This document shows, in pieces, positions 36,194 through 55,095 of a stretch of 64,000 bases of DNA. Source of the stretch: Proteiniphilum acetatigenes DSM 18083 (GTDB taxonomy: Bacteria > Bacteroidota > Bacteroidia > Bacteroidales > Dysgonomonadaceae). The translations under genes were made by a program, and so were the position numbers. The notes under the pieces were generated by a model. The model was not told the DNA's origin, made no database searches, and saw nothing but the letters and a program-made list of their open reading frames with translations. Position 1 is the first letter of the stretch, and each line of letters starts with the position of its first letter. Location of the stretch: assembly GCF_000380985.1 (NCBI RefSeq), contig NZ_KB905698.1, positions 1-64,000 of the forward strand, in the 5' to 3' direction.

Positions 36194-36961
36194 TTACTGG
36201 ATCTCCGGAAGGTATTTCCAGTAACGTTTTGGCATGTGCTGCCGTTGCAGTTTAAGATTGATACGCTCCTTAATTGTGATACTCTGAAAATATTCTTTCC
36301 ACATTTTTTGAAAAAAAGCCTCTTCGTCAGAGAGCTTCTCATTGTCGAGTTTGCCTGATTTTAGTTCCACAAGGTCTTTTTGAGAGAAGGTTATCTCCTG
36401 CACTGTATGCGTATCATAGTATAGGCCTGTATTTCGCACGGTATCGTAAATAATCCAGGGTTGGCCGGCATAGCGCGATTTAAAATGCGGCACGATCAAT
36501 GAAAGCACATTATAACGTGGAGAAACAGGGGCAAACCAGATGCCGTCGGCCGTCTCCTGAAAACGTACGAACTGGATCAGTTTCCGGGCATCGGTACCCA
36601 CCTTCTGTGCTATATCCTTGATACGAAGTACATCATCATCTCCGAAATTCATTTCAATCCCCTGAGGATGATCGATATTTTTACGGATATACCGGAATAA
36701 CAACATCGCTGTCTCCGGTAGTTCCGATAACCAAACGCTCAGCAACATATTTTGTGCGAATTTCGATATTTTTTTCTCCAGTCCTTTCCAGACCCGCTTC
36801 GATTTCTCTTTTTCGGTATCTACATAGTACTGCTCATCTATAAACAGAGGCTTCTGGTCGGATTCGGAGAGGATCAGATCGGGAAATTTCTTCTGCTCAT
36901 ACGCGAAAAACACGCACGAAAGCAATCCGTCGAAAGTATTATCGTATGTAAAAACAATCAT
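36194..36961 (-). CDS. TIGR03915-family putative DNA metabolism protein (DUF4130)
   Basis: 255 residues, starting MIVFTYDNTFDGLLSCVFFA, the diagnostic N-terminus of the TIGR03915/DUF4130 family. Later blocks are RIKDIAQKVGTDARKLIQFV, RYNVLSLIVPHFKSRYA and a C-terminal RQHMPKRYWKYLPEI. The family is normally encoded next to a TIGR03916 radical SAM protein and is thought to act in DNA modification or repair; the activity is not established. Its start codon overlaps the stop of the GH2 gene (TAATG), so its translation is coupled to a galactan enzyme. Its expected partner is 16.6 kb upstream at 53537-54799. No uracil-DNA glycosylase domain is fused here. Confidence 0.85.
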   Translation of the reverse strand: MIVFTYDNTFDGLLSCVFFAYEQKKFPDLILSESDQKPLFIDEQYYVDTEKEKSKRVWKGLEKKISKFAQNMLLSVWLSELPETAMLLFRYIRKNIDHPQGIEMNFGDDDVLRIKDIAQKVGTDARKLIQFVRFQETADGIWFAPVSPRYNVLSLIVPHFKSRYAGQPWIIYDTVRNTGLYYDTHTVQEITFSQKDLVELKSGKLDNEKLSDEEAFFQKMWKEYFQSITIKERINLKLQRQHMPKRYWKYLPEIQ

Positions 36962-39414
36962 TATTCCACCCTTATAGAGATTTTTGACGATTGAACTCCT
37001 TTTGCCTTTGCTTCCAGGGTAAGCGTTCCACCAGTTTTTCCAGCCTGCACAATGGTGGTGAGTTGCCCGTTGAAAAGCGGCATCTGTGGAAGATGGAACA
37101 TGTCCAGACATGTGGGGTTTCCATTGGCAGAAGCACGGTACTCCCCAGCTCCGGTTACCGTGAAACGGATCACGCGGTCGTCCAGCGGACATAAATTACC
37201 CTCTTTATCTACTACACGCACATTCACGTAAGCCAGGTCTTTTCCGTCAGCCGATAATATATGCCGGTCGGGGATCAGCTCAATTCTATGGGGTTCACCT
37301 GCTGTACGAACCATTTTCTCCTCTGTTTTATTTCCGTTTTCATCGTAAGCAACGACCTTCACTTCCCCTGGTTCATAACACACATCCATCCACATCAGAC
37401 GATATCTTTCCGTTAAGGAATTATTATTTTTTGTACGCTTTCCCTGGCTTTTCCCATTAATAAAAAGTTCGGCGGAGGGATAACTCGTATACACAAACAC
37501 CGGGGTTACTTCTCCTTCGCGTCCTTTCCAGTTCCAGTGCGGGAGAATATGTAGCGTAGCTTCGTCCCTGTTCCAGATACTTTTGTACAGGTAATAGCGG
37601 TCTTTAGGAATACTTGCAAGGTCTATAATTCCAAACATGGAGCTGTGATTAGGCCATGCATCGGTGTCATAGGGCGAAGGCTCTCCCAGGTAATCAAAAC
37701 CTGTCCAGACAAATTGCCCCAGTGTCCAGTGATAATCGTCGGCCAGCGCAAAATCTTCATCGGGGATATTCGACCAAAAGCAATATTCGAGATCATAGGA
37801 AGAGGACTGGTGATCGTCATAAAGCGCATCGGCTTTTTTCTCCACGGGGAACTTGTATACGCCACGGGAACTGACGGTGGAAGCGGTTTCAGAACCCAAC
37901 ACCAGATTTTGCGGAAGTCTTTCATATGCCTCCACATAACGGTGGGTTCGATAATTGAATCCGGGAATTTCAACCACCGCTGCAAACCCGTTGTCCAGCA
38001 CACAACTGACCTGGTCCATCCCGGAAGTGACGGGACGGGTAGGATCTTCCCGGTGGCAAATATCCTGGAGGAAACGAGCCACCTTATAACCGTCGCTGCT
38101 GCATTGTGTCGGTACTTCATTACCGATACTCCACATGACTACGGAAGGGTTATTCCGGAAATGGCGCAACATATTCACCATATCTTTTTCCGCCCATTCG
38201 TCGAAGAACCGGTGGTAACCATTTTTGCATTTGGCAACATCCCATTCGTCAAAATTCTCCACGATCATCATAAAACCCATTTCATCGCAAAGTTTGACCA
38301 ATTCCGGCGCAGGCATATTATGGGAAGTTCGTATAGCATCGCATCCCATCTCTTTGAGGAGTGTCAGCTGGCGACGTAGAGCAGCTTCATTGATAGCCGC
38401 GCCCAAAGGGCCGAGGTCATGGTGGTTGCAAACTCCCTGAAATTTCCGCTGCTCACCGTTCAGGAAAAATCCCTTGTCGGCGATAAACCGGATATCCCGG
38501 ATACCGAAACGGGTCGTATATTCGTCACTCTTTGTATCGTCAACAAATAGGGTGGACATAGCCGTATAGAGGTAAGGCGTTTCGGGCGACCATAACCTGG
38601 GATTCTCCACGATAAAGTTCTGCTCAAACGGGCGTCCGTGGTCGAGTTGCTGTGTATTATCCTTCGTTGCCACCACCTTGTTATCCATATCCCTGATCTC
38701 CGTAACAATCCGTATGTTTGCATGATCGCCCGCTATTTCCGTCCGCAGGCGTACAGAGGCATATTCTTCTGACACGAAAGGCGTCGTGATATACGTTCCC
38801 CAGACAGGGATATGAGCCTTATTGGTTTGTATCACATGCACATTGCGGTAAAGTCCGGCCCCCGGATACCAACGAGAAGACTCCGGTTTATTCTCAAGCC
38901 GTACGGCAAGCAGGTTATTCTTACCGTCGACATGCAGCACTTCAGTGACATCGCAATGGAAAGCATTATACCCGTAAGGCCAGAAGCAGACCTCTTTCCC
39001 GTTTACATATACCCTTGCTTCGCTCATCGCACCGTCGAACTTCAGGGTAACGATTTGTTTTTCGGACTGGAAGTTTTCCACATCAAAAAAAGTACGGTAC
39101 CAGCCAGTTCCCATATAGGGAAGGCCACCCGTGCGGCCGGTCTTTACCGTCGGCACCCTCTCCCCGTTCTGTATAATAGCTACTTCCTGAAGATCATGCT
39201 TCCGGTCGAATGGTCCGTAGATTGCCCAATCGTGAGGGATCCTTACCTCCTCCCAGTTTTTGTCATTAAAATCGTCGCTTATCGCTTGGGGGAAATCTCC
39301 TTTACTGAATCTCCAGTTCTTTTCCAACAGGAATTCGGTACGTTGTTGAGCATAAAGAGAAACTGTCAGAAAAAAGAAAATGATAAAAAATACAGACAAT
39401 ACGGCTCGTTTCAT
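36961..39414 (-). CDS. GH2 beta-galactosidase with DUF4982-type C-terminus
   Basis: 817 residues. A signal peptide ending in SLYAQ lacks a lipobox, so the protein is probably periplasmic. The order is sugar-binding domain (WEEVRIPHDWAIYGPF), immunoglobulin-like domain, then the TIM barrel with acid/base Glu in MWSIGNEVPTQ (about 434) and nucleophile Glu in LVLGSETAST (about 507). The C-terminal DUF4982 and Ig-like domains follow (YPSAELFINGKSQGKR). It would cut galactose from galacto-oligosaccharides released by the GH53 enzyme. It is the last PUL gene, and its stop overlaps the start of the TIGR03915-type gene. Confidence 0.92.
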   Translation of the reverse strand: MKRAVLSVFFIIFFFLTVSLYAQQRTEFLLEKNWRFSKGDFPQAISDDFNDKNWEEVRIPHDWAIYGPFDRKHDLQEVAIIQNGERVPTVKTGRTGGLPYMGTGWYRTFFDVENFQSEKQIVTLKFDGAMSEARVYVNGKEVCFWPYGYNAFHCDVTEVLHVDGKNNLLAVRLENKPESSRWYPGAGLYRNVHVIQTNKAHIPVWGTYITTPFVSEEYASVRLRTEIAGDHANIRIVTEIRDMDNKVVATKDNTQQLDHGRPFEQNFIVENPRLWSPETPYLYTAMSTLFVDDTKSDEYTTRFGIRDIRFIADKGFFLNGEQRKFQGVCNHHDLGPLGAAINEAALRRQLTLLKEMGCDAIRTSHNMPAPELVKLCDEMGFMMIVENFDEWDVAKCKNGYHRFFDEWAEKDMVNMLRHFRNNPSVVMWSIGNEVPTQCSSDGYKVARFLQDICHREDPTRPVTSGMDQVSCVLDNGFAAVVEIPGFNYRTHRYVEAYERLPQNLVLGSETASTVSSRGVYKFPVEKKADALYDDHQSSSYDLEYCFWSNIPDEDFALADDYHWTLGQFVWTGFDYLGEPSPYDTDAWPNHSSMFGIIDLASIPKDRYYLYKSIWNRDEATLHILPHWNWKGREGEVTPVFVYTSYPSAELFINGKSQGKRTKNNNSLTERYRLMWMDVCYEPGEVKVVAYDENGNKTEEKMVRTAGEPHRIELIPDRHILSADGKDLAYVNVRVVDKEGNLCPLDDRVIRFTVTGAGEYRASANGNPTCLDMFHLPQMPLFNGQLTTIVQAGKTGGTLTLEAKAKGVQSSKISIRVE

Positions 39415-39501
39415 ACGATTATTTTATTTTCTATATTTCGGTATATGGAACCTTTGATGACTGAAATAATCATGTCAGTCTCATACAATAATAATTTCAA
39501 T

Positions 39502-40539
39502 TCAAAGCTTGAATGCGTCCAATGCTACGGTAGGGCGTCCGTTTTCATCGAAAGCGCCGAGGGTATATCCCTTCCAACCTCCGTACGACTGGGGTTCCCA
39601 GTAGAAGACACCTAAACAGCGATCATCTTCTATGGCTTTCGCCTTGGTGATCAGGTCTGCCAGGAAATCATGGCAGACCTCCGCCTCATCCCATGGCATA
39701 CCGACTTCGCAGATCATCACTTCCGAGTCGTAACGGCTGATCATATCCCGTATGTTGGCAATACAATCAGCGTTCGTCTGTTGCCACGAGTCCGCTGCAG
39801 GATAGAGTGACATGCCGATCACATCCCATTTTCCGCCGTTATTCTTCAGTCCGTCGAATAGCCAGCGATAAAGGTCGTTATCATGCCCCCCATGCAAATG
39901 TACAATAACTTTCGCATCGGGAAACACCTCTTTTACGGCATCGTATCCGGCATTATTCAAGTCAGCATAATTTTCCATATTTACGGAAGCTTTTCCCTCT
40001 TCCCAAAGCATCCCGTTACCTGTCTCATTGCCTACCTGAATCCATTCGGGAGTGATATCATGCGCTTTCAGTTCGTTGAGTATCTCTCTTGTATGGTCGC
40101 CCACAGCTTCCTGCAACTCGTCCATATCCATATCCGTCCAGGCAGCAGGTTTTGTCTGCTGTCCGGGATCCGCCCACGTATCGCTGTAATGAAAATCTAT
40201 CATCAGGCGCATGCCGAGGTTATTCGCACGGAACGCTTTTACCAGCAGGTCGCTCTTGTTGCACCATCCATCGACGGGATCGACCCATACCCGTAACCGG
40301 ATAGAATTCATACCCAATTCACGGAGTAAAGCCATACATTCTTTTTCACGATCATTACCGTCATAAAATTTAATACTGCTTCGTTCCATTTCGGTGAGCC
40401 AACTGACATCCGCCCCCTTGGCAAATCCACTCATATCGTATAGAGGAGGCTCCGGATATACCGGCTTATCGTCGCTGCTGCAGGCGGTAAGGGCGATCAA
40501 CGCCCATACCGTACCCAGGAATATATTTTTTATGTTCAT
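39502..40539 (-). CDS. GH53 endo-beta-1,4-galactanase, lipoprotein
   Basis: 345 residues. A lipoprotein signal ends in ALTACSSDDK; the acidic residues after the Cys suggest surface exposure. The GH53 barrel begins FAKGADVSWLTEMERS. It contains MNSIRLRVWVDP, MIDFHYSDTWADPGQQTKPA, the acid/base Glu in WIQVGNETGNGMLW (about 170) and the nucleophile Glu in MICEVGMPWDE (about 277). GH53 enzymes act only on beta-1,4-galactan, so this gene gives the best clue to the PUL substrate. It follows the SusE-like gene by 21 bp. Confidence 0.95.
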   Translation of the reverse strand: MNIKNIFLGTVWALIALTACSSDDKPVYPEPPLYDMSGFAKGADVSWLTEMERSSIKFYDGNDREKECMALLRELGMNSIRLRVWVDPVDGWCNKSDLLVKAFRANNLGMRLMIDFHYSDTWADPGQQTKPAAWTDMDMDELQEAVGDHTREILNELKAHDITPEWIQVGNETGNGMLWEEGKASVNMENYADLNNAGYDAVKEVFPDAKVIVHLHGGHDNDLYRWLFDGLKNNGGKWDVIGMSLYPAADSWQQTNADCIANIRDMISRYDSEVMICEVGMPWDEAEVCHDFLADLITKAKAIEDDRCLGVFYWEPQSYGGWKGYTLGAFDENGRPTVALDAFKL

Positions 40540-40560
40540 CTCTGTTCTATTTTAATATGG

Positions 40561-42267
40561 TTACTGGATGGCGTATGTCCGGTTGACAAGGTCTACCGTA
40601 ATAGTGTAAGTCCCTGCCGACCAGCTGTTACTGTCGGGAATATCGTTACCACCATACTGTAATTTCCCGTCGCTGCCGCCAAAGAGAATATCCCAGTTAT
40701 TCCGGATAAGGTAAATTTTAAATCCGTAGGTCGAAGCGCCGCTCACGGTAATACTTCCGGAATAGACACCCGGGACGGAGGTCGCCGCAAGTGTCTGATC
40801 GAACTCCCATTTATCGTCCAATCCGTTCACATATACATGGTCGCCTGCCTCAGTCAGTGCATAGGCGAGGTTTTTCAACGACAGGTCGAAGAAATAAACA
40901 CCCGGTACAGGAGCGGCAATATTGTTCTGGCCCTGGAATTCCAGCGTTCCGGAATAGGCATCGCCTCCGGCTTGCGTGTACACGTCACCCCAATTGTCTT
41001 TCTCTATTCCAACCTGGTATCCCCATAGTGAATGTACATTCAGCACGCCGGCATAAGCCAGATTGTCCTCATCATAAAGATACAACTTATTATCGAAATT
41101 CCAGCTTCCTCCTGTGATACCGTCATCTATACCGATCATATAAACCTCCTGGCTGACGGGATCAGGCTCTTCCGAACCGCTCGTCACTTCACACGTCCAG
41201 TTTTTCGGATCGCTCAGGTCCAGGATCAACGTACATTCCCCTGCTGCGGGGATCTGTACGGAAACAGCACCTGCCACTCCGGCCAATACAAGTTTCCCGT
41301 TTTCCTGTGCAAAAGCGATGGTCACTTTATCGGTAGCGGGAGCGCTGTCACCTGTCTCGTAATTATACTCATCTCCCTGTCCGCTCAACCGGATCGTTGC
41401 CGTACCGGCAGAAGCGGCATTGAAAACATAGTACCATCTCGTATTGGGGCGATCAAACGTCATCTCGCCGGTGATATCCCCACTCACCTCCAATACCGGC
41501 AGATAAATAGCCGACCAGCGTTTACGCACAGTATTGACCTCTGTATAATAACAGCCGCCCGGCTCGGGATACCAGAAGTTCCAGCTACCTTCTTCGGAAG
41601 AAGCCAGGAAAGTAGACCCGTCTGCCGCAAGATTTCCCCATACCTTTCCGTCACCCTCTTCCATAAAGAAGTTGTACCACGAAGTAGCGCCGATAAATCC
41701 AGCATATACCCCATTCGCATCTGGAGAAGCCAGTGTAAGACCTGTTTGTTTTTTGTCCTTATCCAATATAAACCCGATCGTCATATCGATCAGATAGGGC
41801 GTGATATTGACTTTCTTTATTTCGCTGTATACCGATTCGATGTTGGGGGCTATGCTTCCGCGCAGACGGAAGTAGACAGGAGTCGCCACATCGGGCGTAA
41901 GTCCCAGGTTCTTGGCGATGGCATTCAACTCTGCACCGGTATAAGCTTTCGATTCGCCGGTACCTTCGGTTTCAATCACGTCCGACGAAAAATCTTCCTT
42001 CGTCGATAGCTGCAGGTATGCCGTAAACAGATCGGGAGCTCCCATATTCGGGTTACTCACTACCAGCGTACTGTTTTTCCATGCGGCGGAGAGCACGATC
42101 TTCGAAGCATTTTCCTTACTTAGAAGGATATCCGTTTCGGTAAGAACAAACTGGCTCTCTTCCAGCCCCGAAAGATATATTTTATCTCCGTCTTCTTCGC
42201 AGGCGATCAAAAGCAGAAGCAGTAGAACGACGGCCGGATATTTTTTCAGTACATGTAATATATTCAT
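40561..42267 (-). CDS. SusE/SusF-like surface glycan-binding lipoprotein
   Basis: 568 residues. The lipoprotein signal is LLLLLIACEEDGDK. A SusE N-terminal domain follows (FVLTETDILLSKENASKIVL with PNMGAPDLFTAYLQLS), then tandem carbohydrate-binding-like beta domains with repeated GVYFFDLSLKNLAYAL and GTYTITVDLVNRTYAI endings. Such repeats are typical of SusE/SusF and SGBP proteins that hold glycan at the cell surface. It is located right after susD, as in canonical PULs. The glycan, by context, is a beta-1,4-galactan. Confidence 0.88.
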   Translation of the reverse strand: MNILHVLKKYPAVVLLLLLLIACEEDGDKIYLSGLEESQFVLTETDILLSKENASKIVLSAAWKNSTLVVSNPNMGAPDLFTAYLQLSTKEDFSSDVIETEGTGESKAYTGAELNAIAKNLGLTPDVATPVYFRLRGSIAPNIESVYSEIKKVNITPYLIDMTIGFILDKDKKQTGLTLASPDANGVYAGFIGATSWYNFFMEEGDGKVWGNLAADGSTFLASSEEGSWNFWYPEPGGCYYTEVNTVRKRWSAIYLPVLEVSGDITGEMTFDRPNTRWYYVFNAASAGTATIRLSGQGDEYNYETGDSAPATDKVTIAFAQENGKLVLAGVAGAVSVQIPAAGECTLILDLSDPKNWTCEVTSGSEEPDPVSQEVYMIGIDDGITGGSWNFDNKLYLYDEDNLAYAGVLNVHSLWGYQVGIEKDNWGDVYTQAGGDAYSGTLEFQGQNNIAAPVPGVYFFDLSLKNLAYALTEAGDHVYVNGLDDKWEFDQTLAATSVPGVYSGSITVSGASTYGFKIYLIRNNWDILFGGSDGKLQYGGNDIPDSNSWSAGTYTITVDLVNRTYAIQ

Positions 42268-42288
42268 AATCTGATAAATGATTTTAGA

Positions 42289-43866
42289 TTAGTAATTATC
42301 GTTACGCAGGTTCGGATTGGCAGTCAGGTCTGTGGTGGGGATGGGGTAAATATTGTATTTTCCATCTACTGCTCTTCCCTCTTTCACTCCCCCTTTCCAC
42401 TGCCATAAGTAATCGGCCGTGGTAAACCTGCCATAGCGTATCAGATCGGTCCGACGCGTACATTCCCAATAGAGCTCACGCGCACGCTCATCAAGAAAGA
42501 AATCAACCGTCAGATCATTGGCGGTCAGCTTCCCATAGGTTTCATAATCATTGCCGAAAGCACGTTGCCGCAACCCGTTCACATAAGCCAATGCTTCTGT
42601 AACAGTGGCTCCCGTACCGCCGCGGATGACAGCTTCGGCGAGCATCAGATAGACATCCGCCAGACGAAATACCGGAAAGTCCGTATTCACTCCGCCGTCC
42701 ACTGTGTTAGACGCCATTTCACCTTCATCAGTCAGGTTTGTCCATTTGTCCACAAAATAACCGTTGCTTTGGTTATCTATTATATCGAGATATTGGGTTT
42801 GCCCTTCGGTAAAGAAAAGGGCCCTGCCATCTTTCTCGTCAAACAACGCCGGTATTTCGCCGCGTACGCGGAACATTCCCCATCCGCTGGTCACCCCGTA
42901 ATCCGCAGGTTTCTGATAATCGGACGTGTTGCTTACCGCTCCACAAATAATATAGGTGGTAGCGCCCCAGGAGACAGTATGCGTTGCATCCACCGGAAAA
43001 GAAAATATAATTTCGTTCGTCCGTTTATGATTGTCGGCGTTAAACAGTTTCTTGTATTCCGGTTCAAGAGTATACCCCTGTTGTATAACCCTCTTACAGT
43101 AGTCAATACAGTCAATATATCGTTCCGTTCCCGTATATATGTTCGCATTCAGGTACATTTTAGCCAACAGGGCATAAGCCGCCGCTTTCGATGCCCGTCC
43201 GTACTCGCATTCTTCTTTGTCGGGCAGGTTACCATCGATAGCCTGCAATTCCGATTCAATAAATTCAAATACTGCTTTCGCCTCATAGCGTGGTGGGATA
43301 AACGTTCCTACCGGATCATTCTCGGTAACAAACGGAATATTGCGGAAAAGATCGAGCGCATGATAATACGCCAGCGCACGGAGAAAACGTGCCTCGGCAC
43401 GATAACCGCGAATATCGGCTTGTTCGCTTTCAGTGAAACGGGCTATTTGCTCGTCACCTGCATTACGAAGAAATTCATTGCAAAGGGCGATGTTATAAAA
43501 TATACGATAGTACATATCAGCTACCCACGGATCGTTAGCGTCCCATGACAAAAAAGTCAGGTCACCCACTTTATCGCCTTCCAACCAGGTAGATGCCAGT
43601 TCGTCGGTTCCGCATTCCTGCAGATTGAAGAAGCTACGCATATAATCCTGCCCGTTATTGCTGGACAGGTCGGAGTTTCCTCCCCCTTTTTCTTGTCCGT
43701 TGATCACAAAAGCAACATAGAGTTTACCCAATACAGCCTTATAATTGGACGCGTCCTTGTATACATCCGAACTGGTAGTTTCAATGTTCGGATATTGGTC
43801 AAGATCGTCCAGACAGCCTGTCAATAAAAATAAACTAGAGAATAGTATATATATGATCTTTTTCAT
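42289..43866 (-). CDS. susD: RagB/SusD-family nutrient-binding outer-membrane lipoprotein
   Basis: 525 residues. A signal with lipobox (LLTGCLDDLDQYP) is followed by the helical SusD fold: EARFLRALAYYHALDLFRNIPFV, YGRASKAAAYALLAKMYLNANIYTG (TPR-like helices) and the C-terminal LAEAVIRGGTGATVTEALAYVN … FLDERARELYWECTRR … NPNLRNDNY. It caps the SusC barrel and binds oligosaccharide. Its start lies 17 bp after the susC stop, the normal arrangement. Confidence 0.95.
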   Translation of the reverse strand: MKKIIYILFSSLFLLTGCLDDLDQYPNIETTSSDVYKDASNYKAVLGKLYVAFVINGQEKGGGNSDLSSNNGQDYMRSFFNLQECGTDELASTWLEGDKVGDLTFLSWDANDPWVADMYYRIFYNIALCNEFLRNAGDEQIARFTESEQADIRGYRAEARFLRALAYYHALDLFRNIPFVTENDPVGTFIPPRYEAKAVFEFIESELQAIDGNLPDKEECEYGRASKAAAYALLAKMYLNANIYTGTERYIDCIDYCKRVIQQGYTLEPEYKKLFNADNHKRTNEIIFSFPVDATHTVSWGATTYIICGAVSNTSDYQKPADYGVTSGWGMFRVRGEIPALFDEKDGRALFFTEGQTQYLDIIDNQSNGYFVDKWTNLTDEGEMASNTVDGGVNTDFPVFRLADVYLMLAEAVIRGGTGATVTEALAYVNGLRQRAFGNDYETYGKLTANDLTVDFFLDERARELYWECTRRTDLIRYGRFTTADYLWQWKGGVKEGRAVDGKYNIYPIPTTDLTANPNLRNDNY

Positions 43867-43883
43867 TGTAATATTTTTTAACG

Positions 43884-46865
43884 TTAAAATTCAAGACCGA
43901 CATTCAGTGAGAAAGTCCGCGGCCGCGGATAAAATGACAAATCCATACCGTTCGGCACTTCGGGATCTACACCATCATATCCGGTTATGCAGAATACATT
44001 CTGCACCATAGCGCTCACATTAAGGGCACACCATTTGTTCACACGTCCGAAATTATACCCCAGTGTGATATTGTCCATCTTCAGGAAAGAAGCATTTCTC
44101 ACATAGTAATCCGACAGGTACTGGCGGTTATTGAATCCGGTTTCCAGGTAACTTGCCGACAGGTTATTGATCTGAAAAGAATTATAGCTTACCGTACTCC
44201 ATGCTCCTGTATTCATTGCCATCCCGTTGTATACATAATTACCCACGTTGGCACGGAAACTCATACCGAGTGTCCATCTGTCATACCGGAGCGATGTACT
44301 GAGCCCGAAAATAAAATCGGGAGCCGGCGATTTGTAACGGTATAAATCATTGGAATTGATCACTCCGTTGCCGTCGAGATCGGCATACGCACCTTCGATG
44401 GGTTTTCCCGTTTCTTCGTCGTATAATTGGTGATACACATAAAACATATAGGGTTCATAACCTTCGGAAAGCACCTGAAACTGGTAGCTGTCGATCGTCG
44501 GACCTACCAGCGTATTCATCGTGGCACTCCCTTCCACCAGCGACAGATTTTTCACCTTCATCTTCTGCCAGGTCATATTGTAACTTACATCCCATGTAAG
44601 ATCCCTGGTATTTACCAGTGTGGCGTTCAATGTGAATTCAACTCCGCGGCTGTCGACATTTCCCACATTGGTAAGAATATTTTTGTCGAAATTGCTTCCT
44701 GCAGGCGAAGGTACGGTTGCCAGCAGGTCTTTGGTCTGACGGGTATAATAATCGAGACTTCCGGTAATACGGTCTTTCAGGAATCCGAAATCGAATCCCG
44801 TATTCCAGGACGAAGTGGTTTCCCATTTCAGGTTCTGCACATAGGCTTCGGGACGATAGGTATGCAGCCACTGGTCGCCGAATTGTACTTCCGCTCCTTC
44901 CTGACTATAGGTATATACCGGCAGGTAATTGTAGTTCCCGATACCTTCCTGTTGTCCCGTCACTCCGTAGCTTGCCCGTAATTTCAGGGTACTGATCAGA
45001 GGATTGTCCCTTAGGAAGGCCTCTTCACTTATACGCCACGCCAGCGCTACGGAAGGGAAAGTACCCCAGCGGTGATCCCTGTGGAAGCGTGAGGTTCCGT
45101 CACGGCGGACCGTTGCCGTAAGCATATAGCGATTATCGAATGTATAGTTCAGACGGGCATAATAGGAAATAAGTGCATGGCGTTGATCGCCGGCTGCCGA
45201 CGTAGTCTGCACCTCTCCTATCGTATTCAACTCGCTGTATGGTGCTGTAATGCTCTTCCAGAACTGGTAATCATAACCCATCGTCGCATCGATACTGCTC
45301 TTTACGGAAGTAAGGTACTTATTGTAATTCAGGTAAGCCGTAAGCAATCGGTTTGTATTTTTTTGAGGCCCATACCCGTAGTCACGCCCTTTTGTGGTAT
45401 AATATTGCGCCGCTTCGGACGGCACATAGATCTCACCCTTGCCTTCGGCATGGTCATATCCCAGGGTGGTATGGAGTTTCAACTCGGGCAGGAAGTGCAT
45501 CTTGTAATCGATATCGGCATTACCGATAAAGCGGCTCACCCTACTCGCGGAATAGTACTGTTCAACCAGTCCCAATGGGTTACGCACACCGCCATTCACA
45601 GGGTTACCACTGTTATCGATCGCTTCATCATATCCGCCGAAATTACTGTTCCCTGAATAGACCGGCAGTGTGGGATTAAATGTGGAAGCAGCCCAGATGG
45701 CTTCGTTATTCGTAAAACGGTTATTGTTCACAGCACCTTTTCCATTGAGTGTAACCCTGAGATGATCAGCGAAGAAAGAGGGTGAGAATGAAAAGCTACC
45801 GGTAAAACGCTCGGCATTGTCACTCTTCATCAATCCGTTCTGGTTGTAATATCCAAACGCTACTCTCACCGGCCATTGCGAAGCGATACGCCCGGCGATG
45901 CTCAGGTTATTATCGGTACCGGATGCCGCACGGAAGATCTGATCATTCCAATCGGTCGAGGTTGTGCCAAGTAGCGCTTTCTGTTCAACTGTTCCCCTCC
46001 CATTGATGATATCGGCGAACTGATCACGGCTCAGCATATCCGCCATCTTTGTACGTGTCTGCACCGAATTGGTAGTGTTGAACGTTACCCGCAGACGGTC
46101 ATCCGTCCCTCTTTTCGTGGTGATGATGATCACCCCGTTGGATGCACGTGAACCGTAGATTGCAGTGGAAGAGGCATCTTTCAGTATGGTCATGCTTTCG
46201 ATATCCGAAGGATTAATCAGGCTCAGGAAATTCCCGGAGTTACCGCTGATTCCCCCGTTCTCCAGGGGTACTCCGTCGAGGACTATCAACGGGTCGTTAC
46301 TGGCGTTGAGTGATGCACCTCCACGGATACGGATGGTGCTTCCGGAGGTGGGCGATCCGCTGTTCGACATGATCTGCACACCGGAGACCTTACCATTGAT
46401 CAGTTGTTCGGGCGATCCGATCAATCCTACGTTAAAATCTTTGCTGCTTACGTTGCTGACCGATCCGGTCAGGTCGCTTTTACGCTGCGTACCGTAGCCG
46501 ATGACAACAAGATTATCCAATGTATAAGACTCCGGTTGCAATTGAATATTCACCGGTCCTGCGTCAACTACCGGCACGACCTGTGTCTCATAGCCGATAA
46601 AGGAGACCTGTATTTCGGTTTTTCCGGCAGGAAGCGTCAGGCTATACTCGCCGTTTATACCGGCGGTTGTTCCGATGGTAGTCCCCGTCACCAGGATTGT
46701 TGCCCCGACCAAAGGTTCATTATTCTCATCGGTAATAACCCCTGTAATCCGTCGTCCGCCTTCCTGCTGTGCGAGCAGGGGGGAAGTACTTCCGGGAAGG
46801 ATCAGGTACAGTATGGCTATAGCGAATACTGTAATAATAGGGTGAAGTGATCTTCGTTCATTCAT
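43884..46865 (-). CDS. susC: SusC/RagA-family TonB-linked outer-membrane transporter
   Basis: 993 residues. A signal peptide is followed by a carboxypeptidase-D-like domain (RITGVITDENNEPLVGATIL), the SusC-specific plug signature (VVIGYGTQRKSDLTGSVSNV, IRIRGGASLNASNDPLIVLDG, ILKDASSTAIYGSRASNGVI) and a long barrel ending in FYPRPRTFSLNVGLEF. It imports glycan fragments with SusD, using TonB energy. It follows the large glycosidase by only 51 bp with no promoter box in the gap, so it is probably co-transcribed from the promoter at 49503-49510. Confidence 0.96.
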   Translation of the reverse strand: MNERRSLHPIITVFAIAILYLILPGSTSPLLAQQEGGRRITGVITDENNEPLVGATILVTGTTIGTTAGINGEYSLTLPAGKTEIQVSFIGYETQVVPVVDAGPVNIQLQPESYTLDNLVVIGYGTQRKSDLTGSVSNVSSKDFNVGLIGSPEQLINGKVSGVQIMSNSGSPTSGSTIRIRGGASLNASNDPLIVLDGVPLENGGISGNSGNFLSLINPSDIESMTILKDASSTAIYGSRASNGVIIITTKRGTDDRLRVTFNTTNSVQTRTKMADMLSRDQFADIINGRGTVEQKALLGTTSTDWNDQIFRAASGTDNNLSIAGRIASQWPVRVAFGYYNQNGLMKSDNAERFTGSFSFSPSFFADHLRVTLNGKGAVNNNRFTNNEAIWAASTFNPTLPVYSGNSNFGGYDEAIDNSGNPVNGGVRNPLGLVEQYYSASRVSRFIGNADIDYKMHFLPELKLHTTLGYDHAEGKGEIYVPSEAAQYYTTKGRDYGYGPQKNTNRLLTAYLNYNKYLTSVKSSIDATMGYDYQFWKSITAPYSELNTIGEVQTTSAAGDQRHALISYYARLNYTFDNRYMLTATVRRDGTSRFHRDHRWGTFPSVALAWRISEEAFLRDNPLISTLKLRASYGVTGQQEGIGNYNYLPVYTYSQEGAEVQFGDQWLHTYRPEAYVQNLKWETTSSWNTGFDFGFLKDRITGSLDYYTRQTKDLLATVPSPAGSNFDKNILTNVGNVDSRGVEFTLNATLVNTRDLTWDVSYNMTWQKMKVKNLSLVEGSATMNTLVGPTIDSYQFQVLSEGYEPYMFYVYHQLYDEETGKPIEGAYADLDGNGVINSNDLYRYKSPAPDFIFGLSTSLRYDRWTLGMSFRANVGNYVYNGMAMNTGAWSTVSYNSFQINNLSASYLETGFNNRQYLSDYYVRNASFLKMDNITLGYNFGRVNKWCALNVSAMVQNVFCITGYDGVDPEVPNGMDLSFYPRPRTFSLNVGLEF

Positions 46866-46916
46866 AATTACGTTACATTTTTATGGTATAATGATATTTT
46901 AATAGTGGATATTGCG

Positions 46917-49472
46917 TTATTCGAGCCATACATCGGCGATCTCAATAACAGCCTGCTCATTCTTCCGGCCATCGAACGCGATCTCCAGTTGTTCAATATC
47001 CTCAGGCCGGAAAGGGATAGGCACGACGGGGTCGAAATATTTTTTCAGGAATACCGGATAAGGATGCGGCAACAATGCCGTGGCTGTCTGTTGCAGATCC
47101 GACAGGGGAATGCGGTATAAGGATTTACCCTTTACGGCAATTTTGGCAGCATAGGTGTAACCGGCATTTGTAACGAAACCGATGCTGACGCTGTCGGGGC
47201 CATTCTGTAGCGTCAGGCAAAGGGTCTTACTATCTCTCAGGCGCTTTGTCCGCAACCCGATCTCCTCCTTTATATAGCTCCGGAGAAAGAAACGGGGATC
47301 CTCATCATCCGATTCGAATACAAAACGTTGCATTGGTCTACTCTCCGGACAGGTATCGATCAGCTCCCTTTGTACACGGCTCCATTCGGGCATGGTATAC
47401 GTCTCTATCCGGTTGTACTCATGCGTCGCACTATAAAGGTGTATCGCACTTGTTTCGTCAACGATCCTGGTTTCCCAATATATCGGAGAGGCATAGTCCC
47501 AATCGAGCGGATTCCCGGATATTCCTGCAGGAAAAGTGGTAGGCTTGCCGTCCCGTGAAACAATGATAGTATACCTGAACTTACCCTGTGTGACAACTTC
47601 TGCGGGGATGGTAGCCCGGTAAGTATAGCCGTGTACCCTTTCCATGGGATAACGGGGATTGTTATCGCTCCAGAATGAGATACGGTCGGTATATATCCAT
47701 ACCGAGTCGGGAAATGCCGGCCCGGCGATCTGTGCTTCGATCACCAGGGGTTTACCGCTTTCGCTCACCGCTGCGGACTGATGCGATACACTGTATGTTT
47801 GCGCGCGGGGTTGCGGTGCCACATATTCACCTAACCGGATAGTGTTCCACGGGGTATCGGCATCCCACTGTACCGGGGAGACATACCCTTTGCGTTGCAG
47901 GATATACACACCCGGGCCGAGAGCAGGAATAACACCGCCCACAGCCTGGGTGCTGTACCTGTTTCCTTCATTGATCCCCCTGATTTCAAAATCATCCTGC
48001 AATGCAGGCAGGCGGAGCGTCATATCCCAACTGTTCCATGCAATGGTCACCACGTCCTTGCGAAGTGATGGCTTGGCGAACGGATCGCTTACCACCACGG
48101 CATCGGGCATTACCTCGAGTCGCCACACACCCTCTTCCAACCGGTCGATAAAATAAGCGCCTGTTCCTTCGTACTGTACGATGGGCGAATTGCCGTATCC
48201 GGCTATCGATTCCAATGCAATGGCATCAACAGGCGGGATGGCGGTATGGTTGGAATAAAAGTATTTCTCTTTCGTATTCATCATACTCAGATCCTGTGTA
48301 TAGCTTACTGTAAAATCCGCGAAGAGTGTATCGGCAGGGTACACACCGTAGGATTGTCCGCGTGGAACGGAATAAGTCACTTCGGCGGCAATTTTCATGC
48401 TGACGGCTTTCTGCGGGGTATAAGCCAGGTTAAGGAAATGCGTCTGATACTCGGTATTGGCCCATGCCATATCCATCGGATCATAGGCGAACTGTGTGAT
48501 CCATTGGAACCCGGCTGTGCGGAATGTCCGGGCCATAGCAGGATGCATATAGGAATACATGATATCGGCCGGATCATATTCGTATACCAACCGGGTTTTG
48601 TTCTCAAATCCTTTTATATGACTGAAGGGGATATGAAAATCATCGACATACGGCAGGAAGTTCCCTTTCCGGGTATATCCCGACACCAGTCCGATGGGAT
48701 ACCACTGGTAAGTGGTTCCCTGTATGCCGGTGGCATAATAGGCTTCCACCTGCTCCATATTATGACTCACGTTGTAAAACACGGGTTTACGATTTCCCGC
48801 TTTACGCAGGGCAGCAAGCATGCGGTGGATGTAATCACGGGTTTGTTGTTGTGTACCTGTATGGCAGGGCTCGTTATTGATCTCAAAGCCGACTACCGAA
48901 GGGTCGTCCTTGTATGCCTTTCCGGTATACGGATTGACATGCATGGCCAGGGAAGCGATATAGCGTTCCTGTGCACGGATGGCTTCGGGATTAGCATGGA
49001 TCTCACACTTATCATACGCATACGAAAAACCTCCGGTCGGTTGGTTCCTTTCCGGGTATCCGTTGCCGAAATTGGTCATGGCCGTAAGTACAATATGGAT
49101 ATCCCGCTCCTTGAGTTTATAGATCAGCCAGTCCAACAAGTCGAGATGATCGTTCTCTATCAGGTTCCCTTCGATATCGGATATCTCCACATCCCAGATA
49201 TGGATACGGTAAGCATTGAATCCCAGCCGGGCAAAATGATAGACATCCCTGTCGATCGCCGCTTTACGGTCAATATCTAGGTATCCCATTGCCCGGTAGG
49301 CATGGGCAAACGGAAGGGTGTAGTTTACTCCGAAAAAAGAGGCTTCCCCGCGGGTATCTTCCCAGCGCATCACACCGTTTTTGTCGATGTATATAGCCGG
49401 TATTTCTTTTGCTTGCGTTGCAGGAAAAAAAATCAGGAAACAGAAAATAAGGGTCAAAATTCGTCTTTGCAT
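46917..49472 (-). CDS. Large exported clan GH-A glycosidase (GH147-like candidate)
   Basis: 851 residues. A signal peptide (FFPATQAKE) lacks a lipobox. The TIM barrel includes FFGVNYTLPFAHAYRAMGYL, NAYRIHIWDVEISDIEGNL and VVGFEINNEPCHTGT (acid/base Glu about 200). TRLVYEYDPADIM (about 298) is a possible nucleophile region. C-terminal beta-rich domains follow, one with TYRATIPAEVVTQGKFRYTI. The NEP motif places it in clan GH-A, near GH5/GH147. In Bacteroides, GH147 enzymes are galactan-active, which suits a GH53/GH2 locus. The exact family is not certain. First gene after the HTCS, with its own promoter and operator-like repeats. Confidence 0.75.
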   Translation of the reverse strand: MQRRILTLIFCFLIFFPATQAKEIPAIYIDKNGVMRWEDTRGEASFFGVNYTLPFAHAYRAMGYLDIDRKAAIDRDVYHFARLGFNAYRIHIWDVEISDIEGNLIENDHLDLLDWLIYKLKERDIHIVLTAMTNFGNGYPERNQPTGGFSYAYDKCEIHANPEAIRAQERYIASLAMHVNPYTGKAYKDDPSVVGFEINNEPCHTGTQQQTRDYIHRMLAALRKAGNRKPVFYNVSHNMEQVEAYYATGIQGTTYQWYPIGLVSGYTRKGNFLPYVDDFHIPFSHIKGFENKTRLVYEYDPADIMYSYMHPAMARTFRTAGFQWITQFAYDPMDMAWANTEYQTHFLNLAYTPQKAVSMKIAAEVTYSVPRGQSYGVYPADTLFADFTVSYTQDLSMMNTKEKYFYSNHTAIPPVDAIALESIAGYGNSPIVQYEGTGAYFIDRLEEGVWRLEVMPDAVVVSDPFAKPSLRKDVVTIAWNSWDMTLRLPALQDDFEIRGINEGNRYSTQAVGGVIPALGPGVYILQRKGYVSPVQWDADTPWNTIRLGEYVAPQPRAQTYSVSHQSAAVSESGKPLVIEAQIAGPAFPDSVWIYTDRISFWSDNNPRYPMERVHGYTYRATIPAEVVTQGKFRYTIIVSRDGKPTTFPAGISGNPLDWDYASPIYWETRIVDETSAIHLYSATHEYNRIETYTMPEWSRVQRELIDTCPESRPMQRFVFESDDEDPRFFLRSYIKEEIGLRTKRLRDSKTLCLTLQNGPDSVSIGFVTNAGYTYAAKIAVKGKSLYRIPLSDLQQTATALLPHPYPVFLKKYFDPVVPIPFRPEDIEQLEIAFDGRKNEQAVIEIADVWLE

Positions 49473-49502
49473 ACGTATTGCCTTTTAGTAACAATGATGC
49501 AG

Positions 49503-49510
49503 CAAAGATA
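49503..49510 (-). promoter_or_regulatory. PUL promoter, -7 box
   Basis: The minus strand reads TATCTTTG, a full TAnnTTTG match, about 30 bases before the glycosidase start at 49472. The direct repeats at 49538-49569 lie just upstream, where an activator would touch the -33 region. Confidence 0.55.
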
Positions 49511-49537
49511 GGCATGTGTAAAGGAGATTAAAAGCAC

Positions 49538-49569
49538 ATCCCGGACATAAATGGATAGATTTCGGACAT
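49538..49569 (-). promoter_or_regulatory. Candidate HTCS operator: two 11-bp direct repeats, 21 bp apart
   Basis: On the plus strand ATCCCGGACAT (49538-49548) and ATTTCGGACAT (49559-49569) match at 9 of 11 positions and start 21 bp apart, two helical turns. AraC-type DNA-binding domains, such as the one at the C-terminus of the HTCS, bind direct repeats of this kind. The pair lies between the HTCS gene and the first glycosidase gene, 28 bp upstream of the -7 box. Confidence 0.5.
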
Positions 49570-49588
49570 GACCCTTTATCCTGTCCGG

Positions 49589-52500
49589 TCAGTTGTCAGC
49601 GTGTTCTTCCATAAACTGCCGCGGCGTCCTTCTGAACTCCGCCTGGAAGCATTTCGAGAAATAAGAGTGGTTGGAATATCCCACCATATACATCACTTCC
49701 GCCACCGTGAATTTTTTCTGACGGAGCAGCATGGCCGCTTTTTTCATCCTGATGGATTTGATATATTCCACAGGTGACATGCCGGTGAGTTGTTTCGTTT
49801 TGCGATAGATCTGTTTATTGTTTATCCCTGACAGCTCACTGAGTGCATTTACATTCAGCTCCGAATCGGAAACATGGTCTTCGATAATCCGCGTGAGTTT
49901 CGACAGGAATTTTTCGTCATACGATACCGCTTCGATGGCCCTGGGCTCCGAAATAATTTCCATACGCGCTTTGGCTTCCATCTGCTGTTTACGGAGAAGT
50001 AGTTGCTCCACCCGCGAAAGTAGTATCTCCGGCTCGAAAGGCTTTCCTATAAAAGCGTCGATATGGAGATGAATGCTTTCGAGCTCGGTTTCCTTATCGT
50101 TTTTGGCGGTGAGCAGGATAATCGGAATGGTCGATGTGGGAATATGTTTCTTGATCCGCTGACACATTTCCAGGCCGTTCATTACAGGCATCATCACATC
50201 CGCAATAATGAGATCAGGTTGGAATTCGAAACAAAGTTCTACCCCTGCCTTACCATTCTCGGCCACTTTACAACGGTACCGGGGTTGTAATGTTTCACAG
50301 ATAAATCCGGTAATATCAGCATTATCGTCCACTACAAGGATCAACGGTTTATCTCCTGAAATAATCTGATCCTCTTCCTTATGAAGTACCTCTGGCAATG
50401 TTTGCCGGAACGGTAACGGAAGGATTAACGTGATTGATGTACCCCGGCCTTCCTCCGAAACCACACGGATCTTTCCTCCGTGTAACTCGGTATAACTCTT
50501 TACCAGATAAAGCCCGATACCGGTACCTTCTCTCTTTCCCAATGTATTGGAAGACTGGAAAAAGCGTTGGAATATGTATGGAAGATCTTTTTCGGGAATC
50601 CCTATTCCGTTATCGGATACTGTAATTTCCAATTCTCCAGTAGTATCAGAAGCATGTATCGAGAGATTTATTTCACCCCCTTCGGAAGTATACTTGAAAG
50701 CGTTTGACAACAAATTCCCGAGGATCGACTCGAATTTAAGCACATCAATATCCAGATAAAGTTCCGGGAGATTACTTTCGAAAAGAAGAGCGATTTGTTT
50801 CTCTTTGATTATCTCCTCCTCATACACGCCCAAAAGACTTCTGGCAAAAGAGATAAACTCTACTTTCGAGAGGATCAGGACAGATCCGGCGTTATCGTCT
50901 ATCCGGTTAAAATCCAGTACCTGGTGTATCAGCGAGTTCAGTTTCCGGGCATTACGCTGCACTATCTCCAGTTGCTTCTTCTCCGACGGGTTCTTCACTT
51001 CGAGGAGCAGTTTGCTGACCGGAGCGACAATCATACTCAAAGGTGTTTTAAAGTCGTGGGATATATGTGTGAAGAAATCTATCTTCGACTGTGACTGTTC
51101 CAGTATTTTCTCTTTCTCAAGACGTTCAAATTTCAGGCGGTTTCTTACCCTGAAAAAATTGATTATCCAGAAAATAAAGGTCAGCGTCAAAAGTATATAA
51201 ACCGCTTTAGCCCATGCCGTATAGTACCAGGGAGGATTGATCCGGATATCGATTGTATAAGGTTGATCCGACGGTTTTCCATACGGGTCAGGTTCACTGA
51301 TCAAAAGCTGATAGCTCCCATATTTCAGGTTATGATAAGTGATCCTGTTGGTATTTTGTTTCAACAGATTCCAATCCTGATCTATCGACGTCAACTTATA
51401 CATAAATTTGGTTTTTTCTTCCAGCGAATAGGACAAGTCGGATATTTCGAATGAAAGGTTATTCTGTGTATGACCGAATATAAATTTCCGGGCATAACGG
51501 ATACCCTCCTCACTGATTCCGTCTTCAGGGGTTACCAGACGATTATTGACATACAGGGCTGTAATCGTTACCGGACGTTCCACCCTGTGCATTCTGGCAA
51601 TTTCGGGAGAGGTAATCACCAATCCGTCAACACCACCCATATAGATTAACCGGTCCCCGGGGTTATAATACAAACTTGTAAAAGCCTTATCCATGACATG
51701 GAAGCGTCGCACATCCATCGTCTCTTTTTGGATAATCCACGAACCGTCAGTGGTAGATACCCATATATCCTGTTCCACTTCGATCATTGATAATATTTCA
51801 TTTTGTCCGAAACTTTCCAGTAAAACGATATCCGGTTTTACACTCCCCGGCATAAAACGCATCGCTCCACGACGAAATCCGGCCCAGATAACACCCTCAC
51901 CATCACACAGGATATAATTCAGGCTCTCACTGTCCGGGATATCGTCGATCGGGATACGGGTAATTTCACGAGTCCGGATATTGATTTTTGTCATTCCTTT
52001 GTTGTAGAGTAACATCCAGATATTTCCTTCGTGATCGGGAATCAGTTGGTTGACAAACATGCCCGGCAAACCATTGTCCGTAGAATAGTGATAGTCGGCG
52101 ACATAGCTCCCCTCAGGGGCTTTCATCAATCTTTCCTTATCAACGATAAACACCCCGCCAAGAAAACTGGCGATCCACAGATAGCCGTCATTATCCTCAA
52201 ACAAATAATAGGCCCAGTTGCAATTATACATTCCGGTACTGTCTACTATATTATAATGGATAAATTGTTCCGTCGTATAATCGTATCGATTAATACTTCC
52301 GTCCGTAGCAATCCAGAGGTTACGGTCTTTATCCTCATAAATATTCCGCACACGATTATGAGACAGCGGGGCGCTTCTGTTTCCCATTTTATACCAGATT
52401 GCCCGGGTATCTTGTCCGGAAACAGACCGGGAACGGATCAACCCGTTAGTACCTCCGAACCAGTAATATCCGTGGGAATCTTTAAAAAGCGAATAAAAGT

Positions 52501-53521
52501 GATTACCCTCTCCCGTACCGGTGATCTGTGAAATCGGCACATACCGGAAACCATTATTGAAACGGGAGAGCGAAATACCGTAATCTGTCCCTAACCAACT
52601 ATTTTTTTCCTTATCAGTAAAAATGGTCCATACGATATTATTGGATAACGAAGAACTGTTACGGGAATCGTGGACCACATGCTGCAACTCTCCTTCCGCC
52701 TGATAGATATAAAGTCCGTTATCCGTTCCTGCCAATAAATTCTGTTGTTGATCCAACGCCAATGTTTTGACCGAATTTTCATGGAAGAACGTTAATTGCT
52801 CCACTTTCTTCGATGCAGGATCATACCTGAACAGATTCCCTTCCGTACCGATCCAGATACAACTCCTTACGGTATCTTCCAACAATGAGTTTACGAACAG
52901 ATTACTTTTATTGACGGCACCGGGAAGAGGAATGGATTCGAAAGTATCCTTTTCCGGCAGATAACAGGATAATCCGTCGTAGGTTCCGATGTATATACGA
53001 TCGTCCGTCGAATGGATAAGAGAGTAAATCGTTTCATGCGTTAAGCCTTTGTGTGTAGTTCTATCGATCCTCTCCAACCGTTCCGATTCGAAATCATAGG
53101 TATACAATCCGTTAAGCGTCCCGATCCATAACACCTTATCACGGCATACCATTGTACGGATATCCGTAGGGAAGGCGATGCCAGGATCTTCATATCTGTC
53201 GGTATGATAGTTATAGACCAGTAATCCGTTATCCGATCCCAGATACAAATAGTTTTCCCCAATGGTTATACCACAATAGATCCGGCTATTGCTCCGCTCC
53301 CCGTAAGAAAAATGAGGTTGTACTGAATACCCGTCGTAACTGAACAACCCTTTATCCGTACCTATCCACATCATTCCCTGCCGGTCCTGAATAAAACTGT
53401 TCACGACAGACGCCTCGGGCCCTAAATGGATATTCTCGAAAATCTGATAATTGATGTTCTGACCGAAAGCCGGCACATAGAAACATATCGTAAGAAAAAG
53501 ATATATAGATCGTAGTAACAT
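49589..53521 (-). CDS. Hybrid two-component system regulator (HTCS) of the galactan PUL
   Basis: 1310 residues. In order: signal peptide, about 14 Reg_prop beta-propeller repeats (for example QDRQGMMWIGTDKGLFSYDG) and a Y_Y_Y domain to about 765; a membrane helix at about 773-793 (VYILLTLTFIFWIINFF); a HisKA domain with the phospho-His in FFTHISHDFKTPLS (about 825); and a HATPase (NLLSNAFKYTSEGG, GTGIGLYLVKSYTELHGG). A receiver domain has Asp in LIIADVMMPVMNG (about 1107), and an AraC-type HTH runs from about 1207 to the end (GYSNHSYFSKCFQAEFRRTP). It senses an oligosaccharide in the periplasm and switches on the PUL. It starts 15 bp after the radical SAM gene, with AGAAGG as ribosome-binding site. 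Confidence 0.95.
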   Translation of the reverse strand: MLLRSIYLFLTICFYVPAFGQNINYQIFENIHLGPEASVVNSFIQDRQGMMWIGTDKGLFSYDGYSVQPHFSYGERSNSRIYCGITIGENYLYLGSDNGLLVYNYHTDRYEDPGIAFPTDIRTMVCRDKVLWIGTLNGLYTYDFESERLERIDRTTHKGLTHETIYSLIHSTDDRIYIGTYDGLSCYLPEKDTFESIPLPGAVNKSNLFVNSLLEDTVRSCIWIGTEGNLFRYDPASKKVEQLTFFHENSVKTLALDQQQNLLAGTDNGLYIYQAEGELQHVVHDSRNSSSLSNNIVWTIFTDKEKNSWLGTDYGISLSRFNNGFRYVPISQITGTGEGNHFYSLFKDSHGYYWFGGTNGLIRSRSVSGQDTRAIWYKMGNRSAPLSHNRVRNIYEDKDRNLWIATDGSINRYDYTTEQFIHYNIVDSTGMYNCNWAYYLFEDNDGYLWIASFLGGVFIVDKERLMKAPEGSYVADYHYSTDNGLPGMFVNQLIPDHEGNIWMLLYNKGMTKINIRTREITRIPIDDIPDSESLNYILCDGEGVIWAGFRRGAMRFMPGSVKPDIVLLESFGQNEILSMIEVEQDIWVSTTDGSWIIQKETMDVRRFHVMDKAFTSLYYNPGDRLIYMGGVDGLVITSPEIARMHRVERPVTITALYVNNRLVTPEDGISEEGIRYARKFIFGHTQNNLSFEISDLSYSLEEKTKFMYKLTSIDQDWNLLKQNTNRITYHNLKYGSYQLLISEPDPYGKPSDQPYTIDIRINPPWYYTAWAKAVYILLTLTFIFWIINFFRVRNRLKFERLEKEKILEQSQSKIDFFTHISHDFKTPLSMIVAPVSKLLLEVKNPSEKKQLEIVQRNARKLNSLIHQVLDFNRIDDNAGSVLILSKVEFISFARSLLGVYEEEIIKEKQIALLFESNLPELYLDIDVLKFESILGNLLSNAFKYTSEGGEINLSIHASDTTGELEITVSDNGIGIPEKDLPYIFQRFFQSSNTLGKREGTGIGLYLVKSYTELHGGKIRVVSEEGRGTSITLILPLPFRQTLPEVLHKEEDQIISGDKPLILVVDDNADITGFICETLQPRYRCKVAENGKAGVELCFEFQPDLIIADVMMPVMNGLEMCQRIKKHIPTSTIPIILLTAKNDKETELESIHLHIDAFIGKPFEPEILLSRVEQLLLRKQQMEAKARMEIISEPRAIEAVSYDEKFLSKLTRIIEDHVSDSELNVNALSELSGINNKQIYRKTKQLTGMSPVEYIKSIRMKKAAMLLRQKKFTVAEVMYMVGYSNHSYFSKCFQAEFRRTPRQFMEEHADN

Positions 53522-53536
53522 ATGTTTTAATACCTT

Positions 53537-54799: not shown

Positions 54800-55016
54800 T
54801 TTGTATACAACAGATTTTGGCACTTTTCTCAGAAAATGCTCTCCGGGATCGGGAATTGACAAAGTAAAACGGGTACCGCTACTTCTTACCCGATTGCAAA
54901 GAAAAGAAATAGAAATCAGATTGACGAATTTAAAATCTTAAAAAACATATCATTGTCAATAAGTTATTAACATATTGACTCCCAGGTAAAATAAGTATTT
55001 TGTAAAAATATTTTCC

Positions 55017-55024
55017 TATTTTTG
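55017..55024 (+). promoter_or_regulatory. Candidate promoter of the DUF6249-sigma-factor group, -7 box
   Basis: TATTTTTG matches TAnnTTTG. The first gene begins at 55096, about 70 bases after. The gap upstream, between the oppositely oriented radical SAM gene and this group, is AT-rich and has no other strong box on this strand. Confidence 0.45.
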
Positions 55025-55095
55025 TAACCGATCCATTAGAGTTGCAGTCCTATGAATGAAAGCAAATTATTATTCACTTTTAAAATGTAACAATT

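Follow-up and report, generated by a model that had tools for sequence, protein, structure and literature searches.

How did a complete galactan polysaccharide utilization locus (PUL) come to lie between the two genes of a putative DNA repair pair, and what does this position mean for the expression of both? The question arises from a 64,000-nucleotide stretch of DNA, hereafter the window, that comprises positions 1 to 64,000 of contig NZ_KB905698.1 (assembly GCF_000380985.1) in the 4.78-Mb genome of Proteiniphilum acetatigenes DSM 18083 (G000). In the window, a seven-gene galactan PUL, intact and with all seven genes being open reading frames, separates a TIGR03916 radical SAM gene (rSAM; we take COG4277 to correspond to this family) from a TIGR03915 gene (DUF4130), and all genes are on the minus strand (Table 1). 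The stop codon of rSAM is 15 bp from the start of the gene for the hybrid two-component sensor (HTCS), and the stop codon of GH2 shares one base with the start codon of DUF4130 (TAATG). The coordinates, both junctions and the place of the PUL between the pair had been given in a preliminary description of this DNA, and the sequence bears them out. Both rSAM and DUF4130 exceed the curated cut-offs of their families, and DUF4130 is the sole TIGR03915 match in the genome; the two genes are 16.6 kb apart, so that the adjacency typical of the repair pair is absent here. With GH53, GH2, a SusC/SusD pair and an HTCS that combines a Reg_prop/Y_Y_Y sensor with an AraC-type output, the seven genes have, by sequence, the composition of a pectic galactan PUL. 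We consider it likely that the PUL entered the repair operon, that the arrangement was spread by recombination and that transcription at the locus was thereby rewired.

Both profiles were searched in 101 genomes of the family Dysgonomonadaceae, 58 of which scored above the cut-off for each, and the distance between the profile matches was taken in the 55 genomes with rSAM and DUF4130 on the same contig. The median distance is 53 bp, in agreement with the earlier statement that the two genes are usually neighbours. It is at least 300 bp in ten genomes and at least 5 kb in four, i.e. in the window, Proteiniphilum saccharofermentans M3/6 (G015), Petrimonas mucosa ING2-E5A (G115) and the metagenome-assembled genome (MAG) Bacteroidia bacterium 43-41 (G048). 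Three of the 55 genomes hold a PUL between the two genes and one holds remnants, and the gaps in the other 51 (30-1,636 bp) are too short for a PUL. As for the remaining rSAM genomes, DUF4130 is on another contig in G006 and G014 and was not found by the family profile search in G037 and G112; in G126, DUF4130 is the only one of the two. At the level of the order, both genes are present in five genomes, always less than 150 bp apart. Because 51 of 55 family pairs and all five order-level pairs are close together, the close pair is the rule in these genomes and the PUL between the partners is a derived state. The preliminary description had raised the idea of an insertion of unusual precision, to be judged by whether relatives carry an uninterrupted pair or all have the PUL as an ancestral feature; the uninterrupted pair is common in the family, and one junction coincides with the start of HTCS, the other with the stop of GH2 and the start of DUF4130.

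Unrelated inserts of 0.3-1.6 kb are present between rSAM and DUF4130 in six other genomes, and the site thus accepts inserts. In G120, the pair is separated by a Bro-N domain gene (L106:4177-5082) whose stop overlaps the start of DUF4130 (5079-5846) by 4 bases, making it another tightly joined insert; an extra copy of the last 45 DUF4130 codons is found ~6 kb downstream of the complete gene (L106:12211-12345), which looks as though a later insert had duplicated the 3' end of the gene. In the Petrimonas MAG G047, the inserted gene is a Pyr_redox_2/FAD-oxidoreductase gene, and a TACCTTTG box at the end of this insert (L063:1767-1800), directly before DUF4130, may provide DUF4130 with a promoter of its own. 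G029 has rSAM and DUF4130 as adjoining fragments only (L071:4414-5135), rSAM with a stop, suggesting that the pair is decaying in this genome.

The PUL lies between the pair in the window, in P. saccharofermentans and in P. mucosa, that is, in two genera. In both relatives, all seven PUL genes are open and the 15-bp gap and the one-base overlap are as in the window. Because these two are single-contig genomes that repeat the gene set, its place and its junctions, we rule out a misassembly. In the cited part of the report on the P. mucosa ING2-E5A genome, its authors list a galactan PUL_39 (PMC7768429). G048, which like P. mucosa is assigned to the same genus as Petrimonas sp. IBARAKI (G122), has remnants of HTCS, GH5-like, GH53 and GH2 around unrelated genes between rSAM and DUF4130. 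This decayed PUL is flanked by a 23-bp exact direct repeat (L062), one copy following rSAM and the other at the beginning of DUF4130 (shuffled sequences gave at most 12 bp), which could mark a second joining event. The galactan PULs of other genera sit elsewhere, and the stretches examined around them contain no rSAM or DUF4130. The search for a closer donor PUL was unsuccessful: the GH5-like protein matches those of P. saccharofermentans (91%) and P. mucosa (90%), and none other exceeds 61% amino acid identity in the 101 family genomes or in 393 order-level genomes.

Comparison of P. mucosa with the window indicates that the locus crossed the genus boundary. The rpoB genes of the two are 80.1% identical with a dS of 2.06. 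Upstream of rSAM, the DNA match is 69% over 825 bp; it restarts at the rSAM start codon (window 54799) with 89.5% through the GH5-like gene, is 75.7% over SusC-SusD-SusE-GH53 and 86.4% over GH2 and DUF4130, and the high-identity part stops at the DUF4130 stop (36194), beyond which identity is 74.8% and then 68.4%. By gene, DNA identity is high for HTCS (92.2%), SusE (89.7%), GH5-like (89.0%) and GH2 (86.2%), and lower for DUF4130 (83.7%), rSAM (83.1%), SusC (73.0%), GH53 (67.5%) and SusD (66.2%); the dS values of HTCS (0.30), SusE (0.35) and GH5-like (0.43) are far below that of rpoB. In the P. mucosa locus (L104/L105), HTCS, GH5-like, SusE and GH2 group with the window. Because its SusC, SusD and GH53 group with the PUL of another genus (G095) and not with the window, the PUL is a mosaic, its sequences indicating that genes have been exchanged inside one PUL.

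The trees of the repair genes point in the same direction. For rSAM, P. mucosa joins P. saccharofermentans and Proteiniphilum sp. X52 (G010) (support 98/99), and for DUF4130 it is sister to G000/G015/G010 (100/98), whereas rpoB and the flanking gene at 34617-35519 place it with Petrimonas. Holding the P. mucosa rSAM with Petrimonas-type sequences was rejected by the approximately unbiased (AU) test both with and without G048 (p 0.007 and 0.003, respectively), and the same constraint on DUF4130 gave p 0.034 without G048; an earlier AU set that omitted G041 and G047, both nested among Petrimonas sequences, was not relied on for P. mucosa. In these trees, rSAM and DUF4130 of P. mucosa have Proteiniphilum affinity, while rpoB and the flank do not, which argues that the block crossed genera. 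For G048, a transfer of rSAM and DUF4130 was considered and not adopted: an rSAM tree without transfer has an AU p of 0.43, and its DUF4130 is already found in the Petrimonas-type group. An integrase- or transposase-borne element was rejected as the vehicle: no gene of the nine that run from rSAM through DUF4130 matched a mobility family, the window contains no tRNA, and the longest words shared between the junctions of the three intact carriers (10, 8 and 7 bp) are within the shuffled range. The simplest account is that the block was probably moved by homologous recombination through the repair genes.

The promoter regions suggest what the new position entails for transcription. As controls, we used related galactan PULs elsewhere in the family, 15 for the region downstream of GH2 and 12 with an HTCS for the sensor box. 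TAnnTTTG, which we take to be the Bacteroidetes -7 element, stands 27-50 bp before the HTCS start in all 12 controls, in ten of them at -31 or -32, and in none of the three carriers at the repair-operon locus (background 0.09 per 200 bp). Likewise, none of the three has a T[AT]nnTTTG in the 1300-bp region that precedes HTCS and spans rSAM. By its sequence, the galactan-operon promoter box with the accompanying repeat is conserved at this locus; all 17 galactan PULs examined have a repeat of the TGTCC-N16-TGTCC type, for which the background is 0.012 per 220 bp. At the DUF4130 end, T[AT]nnTTTG is absent from the last 2.1 kb before the gene in the window and in P. saccharofermentans, and P. mucosa has one at -790. 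Because the galactan promoter box and repeat are conserved and no box is close to DUF4130 in G000 and G015, it is plausible that a putative DNA-modifying protein is under glycan control. Given the TAATG overlap, DUF4130 may in addition be translationally coupled to GH2. Moreover, the coupling may run both ways, because the HTCS is without the promoter box of its relatives. Of the readings in the preliminary description, that of a precise insertion is supported; both the absent HTCS box and the second genus were missed there.

Of 27 genomes examined, 26 have a TTnCTTTG within 250 bp upstream of rSAM, where the background is 0.07 per 250 bp. The long element of the window (TTTTTAAGATTTT...TTTCTTTG) has one match in its own genome at up to 3 mismatches; with no other genes sharing it, a shared regulon was discarded. 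The only published SOS motif in 54600-55300 is a GGA-N5-TCC at 55225-55235, which is >400 bp away from rSAM on its upstream side; with neither published motif near the gene and the long element confined to it, we do not propose that HTCS is under SOS control. Applied to the rSAM upstream regions of the 27 genomes, a dyad search returned only A/T words against plain shuffles and was not used, and scans for sigma-70 promoters and terminators gave counts near those of shuffled sequences (41 vs 34.2 +/- 6.9 and 17 vs 18.1 +/- 4.9, respectively). We do not claim a lost terminator after GH2, since 7 of the 15 control PULs had a terminator-like hairpin by a simple test. The dN/dS of DUF4130 is 0.05-0.10 among the three carriers and 0.04-0.06 in two pairs of non-carriers, values that indicate purifying selection on this gene whether or not the PUL is present.

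Table 1. Genes and putative control elements of the PUL and the flanking repair genes, in window positions.
Feature	Position	Strand	Evidence or remark
TIGR03916 radical SAM putative DNA modification/repair protein (rSAM)	53537..54799	-	TIGR03916 656.6 bits, cut-off 343.5
rSAM start codon (ATG as annotated)	54799		in-frame TTG at 54862
Putative rSAM promoter element TTTTTAAGATTTT...TTTCTTTG	54895..54944	-	conserved box upstream of rSAM
rSAM-HTCS spacer, 15 bp	53522..53536	-	no space for the HTCS promoter found in relatives
Hybrid two-component sensor (HTCS), 1310 aa	49589..53521	-	Reg_prop, Y_Y_Y, HisKA, HATPase_c, Response_reg, HTH_18
TGTCC-N16-TGTCC direct repeat, candidate HTCS operator	49543..49568	-	exact site in the window
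TATCTTTG, -7-type box of the galactan operon	49503..49510	-	such a box before the GH5-like gene in 17/17 PULs examined
GH5-like protein, 851 aa	46917..49472	-	PF00150 22.0 bits, below cut-off 23.5
SusC/RagA TonB-linked outer membrane protein	43884..46865	-	TIGR04056 777.7 bits
SusD-like lipoprotein	42289..43866	-	PF07980 above cut-off
SusE-like surface protein	40561..42267	-	SusE, DUF5111, DUF5114
GH53 endo-galactanase	39502..40539	-	PF07745 314.1 bits
GH2 beta-galactosidase	36961..39414	-	GH2 domains above cut-off; NF041463 GalB 898.8 bits, just under cut-off 900
TIGR03915/DUF4130 putative DNA repair protein, final cistron after the PUL	36194..36961	-	TIGR03915 263.5 bits, cut-off 112.25

The GH5-like protein has partial phmmer matches to GH5 mannanases in the PDB (best E 5.5e-8). 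A second GH53 gene is present outside the window (G000:C3:164436-165296) and has a higher PF07745 score than the GH53 of the PUL.

Several observations weigh against a history of insertion, transfer between genera and rewired transcription, or restrict it. A missing consensus box does not prove a missing promoter, and the three carriers stem from one arrangement, so that the boxes missing in all three count as one event. A same-strand gene starts 12 bp after GH2 in 3 of the 15 control PULs, and a tight follower after GH2 is therefore not unique to the repair-operon locus. When G048 is included, the AU test does not reject a P. mucosa DUF4130 held with the Petrimonas type (p 0.097). Because the rSAM identity between P. 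mucosa and the window barely exceeds that of rpoB, the transfer of rSAM rests on the trees. The block is not whole everywhere: between the window and P. saccharofermentans, rSAM has a dS of 1.08 and rpoB one of 0.26, which argues that recombination also acted at the rSAM end within Proteiniphilum. Finally, G010 has no PUL; the 15 bp after its rSAM are identical to those of P. saccharofermentans and are followed by 90 bp, and this genome may represent either a loss of the PUL or a pre-insertion site.

The PUL could be a bystander at a site that tolerates insertions and gathers other genes as well, its tight junctions having no role and DUF4130 being expressed enough by read-through or from a non-consensus promoter. 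We give this explanation somewhat less than an even chance: it accommodates the six unrelated inserts, such as the Bro-N gene in G120 and the Pyr_redox_2 gene in G047, as well as the persistence of purifying selection on DUF4130, but the HTCS box is missing at this locus only (0/3 vs 12/12) and both junctions are identical in two genera. We regard it as rather unlikely that the PUL has long been at this site in Proteiniphilum, with losses in G010 and elsewhere, and that transfer accounts only for its presence in Petrimonas. G010 is nested among the carriers in the rSAM tree, where the AU test speaks against the three carriers as one clade without G010 (p 0.039), and it shares the 15 bp with P. 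saccharofermentans; however, the same clade is compatible with the DUF4130 tree (p 0.216), no PUL gene lies between rSAM and DUF4130 in G012, G007 or any other member of the genus in which the pair is close, and the 90-bp sequence has no copy besides that in G010 itself in the 101 family genomes. That the PUL was next to these genes ancestrally, and that repeated deletions produced the close pair, is highly improbable: the support for it is limited to the carriers in two genera, while close pairs prevail in the family (51/55) and in the five order-level genomes, and the galactan PULs of other genera lie apart from rSAM and DUF4130 in the stretches examined.

We found no description of a PUL within a repair operon in the literature searched, but there are related systems. 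In the cited parts of PMC3243724, PMC5238430 and PMC3878776, BT4667-BT4673 of Bacteroides thetaiotaomicron is a pectic galactan PUL; when its HTCS is lost, growth on galactan falls to 21.6% of the wild-type level. By this description, and not by sequence, it is similar to the PUL in the window in having a GH53 endo-galactanase and an HTCS regulator; unlike BT4667-BT4673, the PUL in the window is inside a repair operon and without the promoter box that precedes the HTCS in related PULs. In B. ovatus and B. xylanisolvens, according to the cited part of PMC8845570, PULs are exchanged between core “genomic node” genes, and homologous recombination was proposed. As in these species, the PUL studied here lies exactly between core genes, has no mobile functions and is flanked by genes with a donor signature, i.e. 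rSAM and DUF4130 of P. mucosa resemble the donor's in trees, in contrast to rpoB and the flank. However, the exchange here is between genera and both nodes are partners of one operon, so that the insertion would split a functional unit and change its promoters. The COG1573-COG4277 two-gene operon has been predicted to be SOS-regulated in Bacteroidetes (PMC8565304, in the part cited), and DUF4130 to be a mutagenesis-related enzyme (PMC3765255, likewise); the window has the same gene pair as this operon, but with its partners 16.6 kb apart.

Based on these comparisons, our model for insertion, transfer and rewiring is as follows. A complete galactan PUL would have entered the rSAM-DUF4130 operon, open reading frame to open reading frame, most likely in a Proteiniphilum-type genome. 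Subsequently, the arrangement would have spread between species and into Petrimonas by recombination, with the repair genes as homology arms, and genes inside the PUL, as well as the rSAM of the window, would have been exchanged too. At the present locus, the rSAM promoter would transcribe rSAM together with HTCS. Galactan oligosaccharides would activate the HTCS, which would turn on the PUL operon from the promoter before the GH5-like gene, and DUF4130 would now be the last cistron of this operon. The recombination route, the co-transcription, the induction of DUF4130 by galactan and the coupling of translation at TAATG are the parts of our account that we infer.

The exchange of PULs between core genes is already known; what is new here is that a PUL was inserted within a single operon and that its sensor lost the promoter box, and the exchange via homology of the flanking genes is extended from sister species to different genera. 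Here, a nutrient locus has naturally become wired to a repair operon on either side; the 12 relatives that keep the box form a control group, and two of the carriers are described type strains, each from a different genus, in which the arrangement can be tested. Because the usual promoter box of the sensor is missing at the repair-operon locus, some transcripts may now be common to sugar sensing and DNA repair. Tentatively, and aware that it may well not hold, we speculate that this represents a reciprocal regulatory capture, in which the sensor is expressed from the repair promoter and DUF4130 from the galactan operon, and that this wiring has been retained and handed on from one genus to another. 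If so, the state of the DNA and the supply of glycan would influence each other in these bacteria.

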